From: Metabacillus sp. KUDC1714
GTDB lineage: Bacteria > Bacillota > Bacilli > Bacillales > Bacillaceae
Direction: 5' to 3'
NCBI RefSeq assembly: GCF_014217835.1
Contig: NZ_CP055263.1
Span: forward strand, 2,062,501 to 2,126,500
Length of the DNA: 64,000 bases
Part shown: piece after piece, positions 56,557 through 63,817 of the stretch
Position numbering within the stretch: the stretch's first letter is position 1
Layout: every line of letters starts with the position of its first letter
The notes under the pieces: generated by a model
The model's database searches: none
What the model saw: only the letters and a program-made list of their open reading frames with translations
Told to the model about the DNA's origin: nothing
Translations under genes and position numbers: made by a program

Positions 56557-57515
<959 letters not shown>

Positions 57516-57612: not shown

Positions 57613-57783
57613 TTATAATTCAATGTACCTTTCAAATTTTTTGGCGGTTTGTTCTTTTAACGTATCTGTTACGTGTGTATAGATGTTCATGGTCATTTGA
57701 ATGTCAGAGTGTCCTAAACGCTCCTGAACCCCTTTTATACTCGCACCAGCTTCAAATAAAAGAGAAGCATGGTTATTAAAAAC
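57613..57783 (-). pseudogene. Integrase 3' remnant (tyrosine recombinase)
   Basis: The minus strand reads FNNHASLLFEAGASIKGVQE, RLGHSDIQMTMNIYTHV and KEQTAKKFERYIEL-stop: the C-terminal end of a phage-type tyrosine recombinase. LGHSDI is the box with the catalytic His/Trp, and the final Y in NIYTHV is the catalytic tyrosine. The frame loses similarity just before HASLL, where the family has the catalytic RHTH, so about 85% of the gene is missing. It reads toward rpsI, like the integrase at the second att. Confidence 0.9.
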
Positions 57784-57986: not shown

Positions 57987-60900
57987 ATGATGGAAATACG
58001 TATCGACACTAGCAGTCTGACGTACACGCAGTTCTTGATTCTTGGAGTACCTTCCGTATTGATGGAGGGTGCTGCTGCGCCGGCTATTCAGCTCGAGCCA
58101 GGTGAGTACGGCTTTCTGCAGCAGTCCGGTTTGCCAGCTAATTTCACATTCAAAGTCACTGCGGACGGACTGATTGACTATGACGACACATACGAGGGAT
58201 TCCTTGACGGTCGCGGCACAAATACTTTAATCGTACGGGGCTTCAGTATAACACTCGACGCGAGGTCGCTCTCACACGACCTCCTGCCAATGGTAGCTGG
58301 TGCGGATGTTTTGTCCCGAGAACGTACCCACGATCTAACCCTTGTCCCGGCGATGGGATATGGCTTCCAGCCGGCATCGGGAATCGTAGCAGATTTCCAT
58401 TTCGGCGTAACTGTCGATGGTCAGGTAATGGTAGATGAGCGTTATGCGGGATTCTCGGAGGTCAACGGAAGCTTTAGGAGTACGCTGATTATTAACGGGT
58501 ACCGGATTACAATTGATGGACGTGCTCTCTCCCATGATCTCTTGCCGGTGAGCATGCTGGGCAACAGCGATATCCTGCCGCGTGAGCGTACGAATGAGTT
58601 CACCTATATACCAGCGGCTGGATATGGTTTCCAGCCGGCAGCAGGAATCGTGGCAGATTTTCAATTCCACGTAACTACCGACGGCAAGGTAGTGGTAGAT
58701 GAGCGCTATGCGGGATTCGCAGTGGGCAGAGGAAGGACGCTGACTATTACAGGTTATCGAATCACAATCGATGGTCGTGCTCTCTCCCACGATCTTCTGC
58801 CGCTGAATATGCTGGGCAACAGCGATATCCTGCCGCGTGAGCATACCAATGAGTTCACCTATATACCAGCGGCAGGGTATGGATTCCTACCAGCGGCAGG
58901 AATCGTGGCAGATTTTCAATTCAAGGTGACTGTAGACGGTCAGGTAATGGTAGCAGCGCGCTATGCGGGATTTGCTTCAGGCACCGGGCGGACGCTCACC
59001 ATTTACGGTTATAAGGTTACAATCGATGGTCGTACCCTTCCCCACGATCTCATACCGAGGAATATGCTGGGCAACAGCGAAGTCCTTTCGCGGGACCGTA
59101 GACATGATTTAACCTATATACCGGCGGGAGGGTATGGCTTTCTGCCGGCAATCGATACACTGGCAGATTTCGGCTTCAACGTAAACGTCGACGGTCAGAT
59201 CTTTGTGGATCCGCGCTTCGCTGATTTTGCAAGCGCACAGGGCCGAATTTTAATTTTAGGTAGAAAACGAAAGCGAACACCTGCACAAAAGGTAGAGGAT
59301 CTGTGCCAATTGATTGGCACCAAGGAGCCTATCCTGCCGGCATTAGCAGCTATTTGGCAGCGGCGTGAGAACGGTGAACCAAGCAGGAATACATTCGAAG
59401 AAGAACTTTACACGGTCTTCGGCAGCCTTAGCTCACAAAATCAGGAGGCATTGGCACACGGATTTGCGAGGTACAGCGAGTTCCGGGGGAATAATCTTGG
59501 TGATTGTTTTTTCGATGATCAACTGGCAAACGAACTAGTCAATCGGCCGCTTGAGAAGGCTGAATTTGCTTCCAAAATGATGCATTTGGGTCTTAAATTT
59601 GCCGGACAGCAATTATTTAACGGTTCAGGCGGTGATATGGGGCCCGGCCAGGTGCGCCCTTGGACCAGACCTCCCGCAATAGGAGAAGAAGTTACCACTC
59701 CGAATCCGCGGCCTTGGATAACAGCCATTCGGCCGGATGGTTCAAGCACCAACGAGTTCGGCAATACCGAAAGCTTTATAGCGGCACCAGGGGATTCTGT
59801 GGATTGGAAAGGCTATCAGTTCGCTCAAACATGCCGCTTCGAAACGAATGTATCAGGCGGAATTATAGCGCATTGCGACCGTGTACATCCTCCTCCGGGT
59901 TCTCCGGGCCAATTATTTGGTCCCGGATGCGAAGGCGGCAACTATTATCATATTCTGAATGATTGCCTTCGGATTCCCTCACAGCGTGCCGGCGGCTCAA
60001 TCCGATTAAGAGGGTTCAATTTTATTACACCCTCAGTCAAAGTACATCTTCAGTCCAGAGATAATCCGCCGTTAACACCTATCATCCTGGAATGCGTTGT
60101 ATGGGGTGATCGGAATAGACCGGTACATGACGAGCAAGGTAAGGTGATTGCCGATCTTCGAGTGTTTGACTGGGTTGACGTACCCATTCCGTCTGAACAT
60201 CCTGATCGGCCGGGTTCGCCCCTTGCTCCAGGCCTATACGATATTTGGATTAGTGTTAAAGATCCATCCTCTACCCCGGAAAATCCTATTGTTCGGGAGT
60301 CCAATAGACTTGTGCTCAGGGTTGAACCAAACGAGAATGTACACTTTCTTTTAAGAAGCCAGCACGGCCGCTGCATAAAGGAAACCCCAGGCGGCGGTGA
60401 CGATGAGATCTGGTGGGATGCTTTTGTCGGACATATCGTCCCAAACAAAATCCCTCTTGACTTAGAGGGAGGCACAGCGTTCCGTGTGGAAGAGATAAGT
60501 CGAAAGCCATTTCCTCGTGAACCATGGGAGGATATGGACGAAGGGGAATCTGCTAATTACAACCACAATATCTTTGGTCCCGGTCCATTCCAGCTGAACG
60601 GTGTTGTAGCCATTGCTTTCGTTGGCCTTGAAGTTGACAGCGAAGATGCCGCTAGTGAACAGCTCCAAGGTTTCTGGAACGCATACTTTGAAGCCTTTAA
60701 AGCAGTCGCGGAGGTCACTCTTGGGCTTGGGGGGCCTGGGTTGGTTACAACTCTTGCCGAAATCCTTAAAGAAGCTGGACTTGTAGCAGCAAAGGCAGCT
60801 GTAAGTGCCGCAATTGCAATTCTTGCTTATATTGCTGCCATTACTTTGATTACGATGGGATTGTGGGCTGTCTGGGCACCCGCCGATCTCATCGCTCTCG

Positions 60901-61169
60901 ACATTTTTTATCTGGATGGCTTAACGGCCTGGGAGTACACGGATTCAAAGAAACCTCTTCCTTACGAAACCAAGCGTCAATTTGGTCCTGTCGAATCCGA
61001 TGATAACGAAGTACTGATAACAGTCACCCAGCGAGCTTTACAAAAACGCGGAAACCCTGGTGAGGCAACTGCCACATGGGTTCAGGAAAATCAGTATGAT
61101 GCAAAACATGATGGTGAAGATTTTGCTAGCTATGTATTGGAGTTTCGGCTTACTAGAACAACGGTTTAA
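57987..61169 (+). CDS. Large repeat protein of unknown function, 1060 residues
   Basis: I do not recognise the family. Residues 34-425 hold about 4.6 tandem repeats of 82-88 residues. The repeat pattern includes YIPAAGYGF, ADFxFxVTxDGxVxVDxRYAGF, LTIxGYxITIDGRxLSHDLLP and LGNSDILPRE. A helical segment (about 430-545) follows, then a Gly/Pro-rich region with Cys616, 630, 648 and 660. Next come two beta-rich parts that resemble IPT/TIG folds (about 590-790), then a CIKETPGGGDDEIWW segment (about 796-810). A long hydrophobic stretch lies at about 930-975. No signal peptide is visible. Sampled lines are 50-55% G+C, unlike the neighbours, so it was probably acquired. ATG 57987 (or 57990) follows ACGGAGG. 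It may bind a surface or insert in a membrane; this is speculation. Confidence 0.85.
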   Translation: MMEIRIDTSSLTYTQFLILGVPSVLMEGAAAPAIQLEPGEYGFLQQSGLPANFTFKVTADGLIDYDDTYEGFLDGRGTNTLIVRGFSITLDARSLSHDLLPMVAGADVLSRERTHDLTLVPAMGYGFQPASGIVADFHFGVTVDGQVMVDERYAGFSEVNGSFRSTLIINGYRITIDGRALSHDLLPVSMLGNSDILPRERTNEFTYIPAAGYGFQPAAGIVADFQFHVTTDGKVVVDERYAGFAVGRGRTLTITGYRITIDGRALSHDLLPLNMLGNSDILPREHTNEFTYIPAAGYGFLPAAGIVADFQFKVTVDGQVMVAARYAGFASGTGRTLTIYGYKVTIDGRTLPHDLIPRNMLGNSEVLSRDRRHDLTYIPAGGYGFLPAIDTLADFGFNVNVDGQIFVDPRFADFASAQGRILILGRKRKRTPAQKVEDLCQLIGTKEPILPALAAIWQRRENGEPSRNTFEEELYTVFGSLSSQNQEALAHGFARYSEFRGNNLGDCFFDDQLANELVNRPLEKAEFASKMMHLGLKFAGQQLFNGSGGDMGPGQVRPWTRPPAIGEEVTTPNPRPWITAIRPDGSSTNEFGNTESFIAAPGDSVDWKGYQFAQTCRFETNVSGGIIAHCDRVHPPPGSPGQLFGPGCEGGNYYHILNDCLRIPSQRAGGSIRLRGFNFITPSVKVHLQSRDNPPLTPIILECVVWGDRNRPVHDEQGKVIADLRVFDWVDVPIPSEHPDRPGSPLAPGLYDIWISVKDPSSTPENPIVRESNRLVLRVEPNENVHFLLRSQHGRCIKETPGGGDDEIWWDAFVGHIVPNKIPLDLEGGTAFRVEEISRKPFPREPWEDMDEGESANYNHNIFGPGPFQLNGVVAIAFVGLEVDSEDAASEQLQGFWNAYFEAFKAVAEVTLGLGGPGLVTTLAEILKEAGLVAAKAAVSAAIAILAYIAAITLITMGLWAVWAPADLIALDIFYLDGLTAWEYTDSKKPLPYETKRQFGPVESDDNEVLITVTQRALQKRGNPGEATATWVQENQYDAKHDGEDFASYVLEFRLTRTTV

Positions 61170-61264
61170 AGGGTGTTTCACGTGTTTCTACCAATGTATG
61201 CCGTGGTCCGCACGGGCTATTTTATTCTTTTATAGTTGTTCCAGGGTGGTACCCTGATCCAGAA

Positions 61265-61311
61265 AACGAAAAGCCTGCAGCTAACTCCTACTGCAGGCCT
61301 TTCGTTTCTTT
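61265..61311. terminator. Terminator after the 1060-residue gene
   Basis: AACGAAA-A-GCCTGCAG ... CTGCAGGC-C-TTTCGTT, 15 pairs with one mismatch around a 10-base loop, then TTCTTTC. A smaller hairpin GCCGTG-GTCC-GCACGGGC near 61199-61216 precedes it. Confidence 0.8.
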
Positions 61312-62095: not shown

Positions 62096-62422
62096 ATGTA
62101 TCAAAACTTTTATCCACATACACCTGTATATGGATATACTGGTAATCTGTATAATAATTATCCTAATATGCAATGGCCAAATAATGAATACAGATTAACA
62201 AATTTTACTCAACATGTAGGTAAGTTAATGGCTGCTCCAGCAGATGTAGAAGGCTACTTTCCAAAAGGAACCCGCATTTTTATTCACCGAACCTACTTTG
62301 ATAACGAGGGTCAACAAATGGTAATTGTCGTGTACCCATTCCAAAACCCTAATACTGGTATGTCTTCAGTTAGATCTAGAACTTTTTCAGCACTTCAACT
62401 TGATGGAATACAACCCATTTAG
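62096..62422 (+). CDS. Small protein of unknown function, paralogue 1
   Basis: A 108-residue protein I do not recognise. The N-terminal 35 residues are rich in Tyr, Asn and Pro (YPHTPVYGYTGNLYNNYP), a composition seen in spore-coat and surface proteins. The C-terminal ~70 residues (DVEGYFPKGTRIFIHRTYF and VIVVYPFQNPNTG) look like a small beta domain. No signal peptide or transmembrane helix. ATG follows AGAGG. It is strongly AT-rich. A paralogue lies 604 bases downstream, and both have a duplicated leader and a similar hairpin terminator. Confidence 0.75.
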   Translation: MYQNFYPHTPVYGYTGNLYNNYPNMQWPNNEYRLTNFTQHVGKLMAAPADVEGYFPKGTRIFIHRTYFDNEGQQMVIVVYPFQNPNTGMSSVRSRTFSALQLDGIQPI

Positions 62423-62699: not shown

Positions 62700-63035
62700 A
62701 TGTATCAAAACTTATATCCATATACACCTGTATATGGATATACTAGTAATCTGTATAATAATTATCCTAATATGCAATGGTCAGAAAATGAATACAGAGT
62801 AAATTATACTCCATATGTAAGTAAGACAATAGTTGCTCCAGCAGATGTAGAAGGCTACTTTTCAAAAGGAACCCAAATTTTTATCCATGGAACCTATTTT
62901 GATAGTACCACTGGTGAGCAAATAGTAATTGTGGCGTATCCAGTCACAAACCCTAATACTGGTGTGTGTTCAGTCAGAGTTAAAGAATTTCATGCAGCCG
63001 TCCTTGATGGAATACAACTCCCCCCTGAAAGTTAA
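62700..63035 (+). CDS. Small protein of unknown function, paralogue 2
   Basis: A 111-residue paralogue of the preceding gene. The N-terminal YPYTPVYGYTSNLYNNYPNMQW is nearly unchanged. The C-terminal domain has diverged more (GTQIFIHGTYFDSTTGEQIV against GTRIFIHRTYFDNEGQQMV) and has one cysteine. The N-terminal third is much better conserved than the rest, which suggests constraint or recent gene conversion. 16 of 60 bases in line 62761 are G or C, far below the large upstream gene. Confidence 0.75.
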   Translation: MYQNLYPYTPVYGYTSNLYNNYPNMQWSENEYRVNYTPYVSKTIVAPADVEGYFSKGTQIFIHGTYFDSTTGEQIVIVAYPVTNPNTGVCSVRVKEFHAAVLDGIQLPPES

Positions 63036-63746: not shown

Positions 63747-63817
63747 AAAGAACGTAAAAAATACGGTCTTAAAGGCGCTCGTCGTGCACCTCAGTTCTCA
63801 AAACGTTAATTATCAAC
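63747..63817 (+). repeat. Attachment site copy 2 (duplicated rpsI 3' end)
   Basis: Identical over 71 bases to 57445-57515. The first 63 bases (63747-63809) repeat the last codons and stop of rpsI but are preceded by unrelated DNA, so they encode nothing. It marks the junction between the inner element and a second element that runs out of the window. Confidence 0.93.

Follow-up and report, generated by a model that had tools for sequence, protein, structure and literature searches.

A Two-Module Protein of an Unnamed Family as the Sole Large Intact Gene of a Decayed rpsI Element in Metabacillus sp. KUDC1714

Organization of the Locus

The window analyzed here is a 64,000-nucleotide stretch (G000:C1:2062501-2126500) of the 5.76-Mb single-contig genome of Metabacillus sp. 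KUDC1714, and the subject is a gene for a 1060-residue protein, which is present as a preliminary description of this DNA had read it. The product is a real, well-conserved, unnamed protein, a fusion of an N-terminal repeat module and a C-terminal module that mostly occur apart; it is not a system. The features of the locus are collected in Table 1. Upstream of the gene lie ribosomal-protein genes, ecfAAT, truA, rplM, and rpsI (names assigned from the open reading frames (ORFs) by reading). The RNA families found, the Bacillaceae-1 RNA and the L10, L13, and T-box leaders, mark the DNA as Bacillus-type, and Rfam gave no match inside the island that carries the gene.

Table 1. Positions of the features of the locus within the window.
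Feature	Position	Strand	Basis
1060-residue two-module protein gene	57987..61169	+	ORF, 1060 codons plus stop
N-terminal module, ~five 85-residue beta units, weakly CnaB-like, residues 1-425	57987..59261	+	lag analysis, fold model
Helical start of C-terminal module, residues 426-546	59262..59624	+	AlphaFold secondary structure
TIG/IPT-type immunoglobulin (Ig)-fold region, residues ~557-781; invariant cysteines 616, 630, 648, 660	59655..60329	+	fold comparison
Beta structure, residues 783-1060, interrupted by conserved hydrophobic helical segment (~895-966); invariant acidic residues	60333..61166	+	AlphaFold model, family alignment
Strong hairpin 3' of two-module gene, terminator-like	61264..61307	+	fold z-score -5.0
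rpsI (ribosomal protein S9), 3' end = integration site	57115..57507	+	ORF read as rpsI; 3'-end copies
Left 71-bp att-like repeat = real rpsI 3' end	57445..57515	+	identical to 63747-63817
Right 71-bp att-like repeat; second decayed element starts here	63747..63817	+	identical to 57445-57515
Tyrosine integrase remnant, last 52 codons only	57616..57771	-	tblastn
Small gene, 108 residues, first of tandem pair	62096..62422	+	ORF, same island
Small gene, 111 residues, second of tandem pair	62700..63035	+	ORF, protein 70% identical to first

The two 71-bp copies bound the island without a mismatch, 6302 bp apart, and the repeat ends just past the rpsI stop codon. Between them lie the integrase remnant, the two-module gene, and the tandem pair of small genes. 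The remnant is 94% identical (tblastn) to the end of an intact 386-residue integrase located at rpsI in another genome of the genus (G014), and no intact tyrosine integrase was found in the rpsI element of the window. The two-module gene is the sole large intact gene of this decayed element, in agreement with the earlier proposal that it represents the cargo of an island.

IMESag-rpsI is reportedly an integrative and mobilizable element at the rpsI 3' end. The element of the window shares this target, together with direct repeats, with IMESag-rpsI and McRImecD-1. In contrast to both, its integrase is truncated, no mobilization gene was recognized, and the cargo is not a resistance gene. The McRImecD islands are described with a 61-bp core att site at this end of rpsI, in an account that also records rpsI-associated integrases from Bacillus (PMC5341023). 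Integration at this place has thus been described before, so that the reading of an island with cargo is right and the island belongs to a known kind; it is an ordinary mobile-element cargo situation. The rpsI end was matched in 60/60 genomes of a search among relatives, several of which possess two or more such places.

The composition of the gene is foreign, as the preliminary description had noted. Its G+C content is 0.504 (0.467 at third positions), compared with 0.353-0.383 in four upstream genes and 0.351-0.352 in the two small downstream genes; third-position G+C in those six neighbors is 0.21-0.29. Homologous genes at six loci range from 0.509 to 0.639; the value of the Anaerolinea homologue was left aside, because masked runs at that locus were counted in its length. 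A GGAGG ribosome site directly precedes the gene. Upstream, a scan for sporulation-sigma promoters found one sigG/F-like match, a loose one at -220; as the background rate is 0.2 per 250 bases, this is no signal.

Distribution and Conservation of the Two Modules

Homologues were collected in three protein searches (whole protein, repeat module, and C-terminal profile), which scored only the ~8000 best candidates. Among 85 non-self proteins matched by the whole protein, 29 match residues 1-425 only, 54 match residues 426-1060 only, and 2 (P0002 and P0003) match both. The repeat-module search listed 85 proteins and the C-terminal profile search 65, including the query. On the other hand, no described family covers most of the length of the protein, the result that would have spoken against the preliminary description. 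Pfam gave two short sub-threshold matches only, NCBIfam and PADLOC none, and PHROGs one at E 0.045; the PDB gave no sequence match for either the whole protein or the C-terminal profile. The C-terminal module is a rare family unnamed in Pfam, NCBIfam, PHROGs, and PADLOC. A brief literature search found nothing on DUF6603 or on matrixin or CnaB in combination with repeats, which does not show the family to be unpublished.

The family is spread patchily across phyla. At E 1e-3, the protein matched only itself among 60 relatives (0/59 others) and in a 398-genome sample of its own phylum (0/397 others), two sets that overlap. In the phylum of Nocardia, 1/396 genomes gave a match, which was the known Nocardia itself. 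In the phylum of Anaerolinea, 3/251 genomes gave a match: two were previously known carriers of the C-terminal module, and the third had repeats. Scanning the contigs of GTDB yielded 10 homologous loci, in Bradyrhizobium, a soil deltaproteobacterial metagenome-assembled genome (MAG), a proteobacterial MAG, Nocardia, Paracoccus, and five Anaerolineaceae-type genomes (one a partial match). The Paracoccus homologue adjoins the start of a gene that looks by eye like an IS110-type transposase (L008:5661-6086), a further sign of mobility.

The nearest kin of the window protein is a metagenome protein, followed by Bradyrhizobium and Acidobacteria proteins. A quick tree built from 73 rows makes the window protein sister to P0003 (Shimodaira–Hasegawa-like approximate likelihood ratio test (SH-aLRT) 99), within a group of 8 rows (SH-aLRT 92) that comprises these two and Acidobacteria and Bradyrhizobium proteins. 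Because the protein is absent from the samples of its own phylum and its nearest kin are found elsewhere, we infer that the gene was probably imported, its two modules already fused, from a donor in another phylum. Since P0003 likewise has the final part of the repeat module, the fusion is probably older than its arrival in this host. A viral origin was rejected, with none of 29 pattern matches confirmed as a viral contig by tblastn, and 50,697 phage records gave no match. Plasmid cargo was likewise rejected, with a match in only 1/72,556 records, to the repeats alone, in Streptomyces.

The window protein keeps all 41 columns that show no variation across the remaining 55 rows of the C-terminal alignment, and 64/65 near-invariant ones, which fits whole-gene import and continued function. 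These counts bear on the view that the gene is a functionless passenger in this host, a recent arrival intact by chance. Its deviant G+C content and the decay of the surrounding element would suit such a passenger, but the preserved columns, the lack of any stop in 1060 codons, and the good ribosome site and terminator-like hairpin directly around the gene make it improbable.

The N-Terminal Repeat Module

The ~85-residue repeats of the preliminary description are borne out by lag analysis: over residues 1-430, 131/345 pairs (38%) are identical at lag 85, far above chance, and among lags 60-119 only lag 88 (16%) also exceeds 15%. At the DNA level, three copies of 255 nucleotides are related at 100/82/67%. 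After a divergent first unit, the units are anchored at residues 107, 195, 280, and 365; the final unit lacks its last third, so the earlier count of 4.6 repeats is a fair one.

At the level of the AlphaFold model (predicted local distance difference test score 91), the units are beta-sandwiches with a weak likeness to CnaB, and pVHL matches nearly as well in fold comparison. Among described proteins, pilus adhesins with CnaB domains (SpaC, Cpa; SpyCatcher) come closest, at this weak likeness. In contrast to those adhesins, the repeat protein has no PDB sequence match, no shared isopeptide lysine, and neither a signal peptide nor a sortase signal visible by eye. No lysine for a Lys-Asn/Asp bond occupies a common position across the four anchored slices, in which lysines occur at none; 40; 34 and 64; and 63, 65, 71, and 82, respectively, the last slice extending into the next module. 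A viral fold library returned 7 matches to the repeats at E 0.001, with template-modelling scores of at most 0.18, which include phage membrane, baseplate, and surface-anchor proteins.

The absence of a signal peptide, also claimed before, was judged by eye with no predictor run, and it agrees with two further observations. The first modelled strand starts at residue 2, and of the 51 proteins (among 166 examined) that carry the start motif within their first 120 residues, 48 begin no more than 8 residues from it.

In other proteins, the repeat module is fused to Matrixin (6/25 aligned rows), Big_3_5 (6/25), PG_binding_1 (5/25), GH5 (1/25), and DUF4185 (1/25). A PDB profile search with the repeat alignment (A2) matched 93 entries, of which the 60 listed showed matrixin-type enzymes; as matrixin rows belong to that alignment, it was discarded as saying nothing on the repeats. 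At a single locus on a Streptomyces plasmid (NZ_CP109170.1, L019:1-17242), a repeat-module protein lies among phospholipase D-like, DUF2235, peptidoglycan-binding, and DUF6603 genes.

The C-Terminal Module

The cysteine-containing middle noted earlier is confirmed, with cysteines at residues 440, 507, 616, 630, 648, 660, 703, and 796, five of which are invariant in 56/56 rows of the C-terminal alignment. The acidic residues D806, E807, E882, and D884 are invariant as well. The hydrophobic segment is conserved in 56/56 rows; its hydrophobic stretch lies at ~931-963 and is followed by ~97 residues, mostly beta in the model, so that the segment reported before exists but does not form the C-terminus. 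Similarly, the IPT-like parts proposed before were recovered by fold comparison, which found an Ig fold of the TIG type, but not by Pfam, where TIG (PF01833) matched neither the whole protein nor its pieces. The matched Ig fold is of the kind seen in a domain of cyclodextrin glycosyltransferase. The C-terminal Ig region shares its fold with the TIG/IPT domain of such enzymes and differs from it in four invariant cysteines, long loops, and the lack of an attached glycosidase. A Foldseek search with the C-terminal model gave no match at E 0.001, and the rows listed were mostly T-cell-receptor and antibody chains.

DUF3597, described as a putative wall-binding domain, is attached to the C-terminal module in 4/56 rows, including Bradyrhizobium and Roseimicrobium proteins. 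The window protein shares the C-terminal module with these proteins, but PF12200 (Pfam) is absent from it. Other partners, read by eye, are Pro/Cys-rich tails or two unnamed domains. In P0015 of the same family, a ~100-residue segment resembling the N-terminus of P0006 appears by eye to sit within another N-terminal module, as if modules nest.

The invariant acidic residues and five cysteines, together with the lack of a visible signal peptide, would suit a cytosolic enzyme or ligand binder in which these residues bind metal and the beta units form a scaffold. The partners of both modules point instead to extracellular surfaces, and a cytosolic role is considered doubtful.

A Lone Protein Rather Than a System

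The preliminary description regarded the gene as the main candidate for an undescribed system. At six homologous loci (L004, L006, L007, L008, L010, and L012), no common neighbor was recognized by ORF reading, no family-library scan having been made; as far as these six loci go, the homologues have no conserved genetic context. A multi-gene system was accordingly rejected; an undescribed protein family is supported. The product seems to act alone.

The same neighborhoods bear on the possibility that the protein is a membrane-active, toxin-like effector, in which the repeats or another N-terminal module target a cell and the C-terminal hydrophobic helix inserts into its membrane. Exchangeable N-terminal modules ahead of one constant C-terminal module, the invariably conserved hydrophobic segment, and the patchy spread are all in its favor. 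However, the six loci offer no common partner gene by reading, and in the window only two mechanical ORFs (65 and 72 residues; GTG/TTG starts) separate the gene from the two small genes 0.9 kb downstream, for which a protective role would be conjectural. Furthermore, no toxin family was matched in Pfam, NCBIfam, or PADLOC, and the phage-sheath family PF04984 was over its cut-off in 0/7 genomes, which included the host's own but not that of the Bradyrhizobium, with one match below the cut-off (G454). An effector is thus unlikely, and cargo of a contractile injection machine was rejected because the host genome has no sheath gene.

Neighboring Genes and Elements

The tandem small genes have their upstream and terminator regions duplicated too, and no relative was found in the other 59 of the 60 genomes searched. 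A conserved palindrome-like CCTATNCAANTAGG stretch precedes each of them and is perhaps an operator. The second small gene gave a sub-threshold Pfam TIG match (E 0.058); kinship of the small neighbors with the large protein was rejected (BLASTP E 0.078).

The second decayed element, to the right, has an integrase interrupted by stops, and a third, imperfect att-like copy lies at genome position 2129831. This element contains ~400-540 bp tandem segments of 81-90% identity (L002:7224-8734, genome 2127123-2128633), which overlap a 235-residue helix-turn-helix (HTH)-type gene. The 12-kb rpsI element of the same genus (L036, G014:C1:4014000-4029000) encodes, by eye, an HTH regulator and a replication-type protein besides its intact integrase, and two adjacent C5-type DNA methyltransferases.

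Proposed Role and Implications

Based on these results, a possible role was proposed. The gene would be cargo that has been kept while the rpsI-integrating element around it decayed. Its product, synthesized without a signal peptide, would leave the cell through lysis or a non-classical pathway and act on its own as a binding protein outside. The beta-sandwiches, set in a row, may serve as a stalk or as an arm that binds cell surfaces or polymers. The C-terminal module, in which helices and a TIG-like Ig fold are followed by beta structure containing a hydrophobic helical insertion and invariant acidic positions, could dock on a membrane or ligand. We infer an extracellular surface from the domains to which the two modules are joined, namely proteases, GH5, and wall-binding domains for the repeats and DUF3597 for the C-terminal module; the lack of a visible signal peptide points to release by lysis or some other route. 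This reading, of a protein that is released to bind surfaces and docks through its C-terminal module, is favored tentatively, and the build does suit a surface-binding or membrane-touching protein, as suggested before.

A bolder and rather improbable extension is that the C-terminal module is a new membrane-docking domain, in which the TIG-like Ig fold is joined to beta structure with a hydrophobic helix embedded in it and with an acidic site that might bind calcium. The gene would then be a single "plug-in" that crosses phyla with varied N-terminal targeting modules (CnaB-like repeats, DUF3597 pairs, two unnamed domains, and Pro/Cys-rich tails).

The finding describes a small unnamed family whose members recur across phyla as single genes with swapped N-terminal modules. 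In a Bacillus-type genome, it also shows an rpsI-type element as the carrier of such a gene or as the place where it landed. If the protein is only adhesive, it would be an ordinary modular surface protein, unusual in having no signal peptide; contact of its C-terminal module with membranes, if real, would make that module a new domain of this type.
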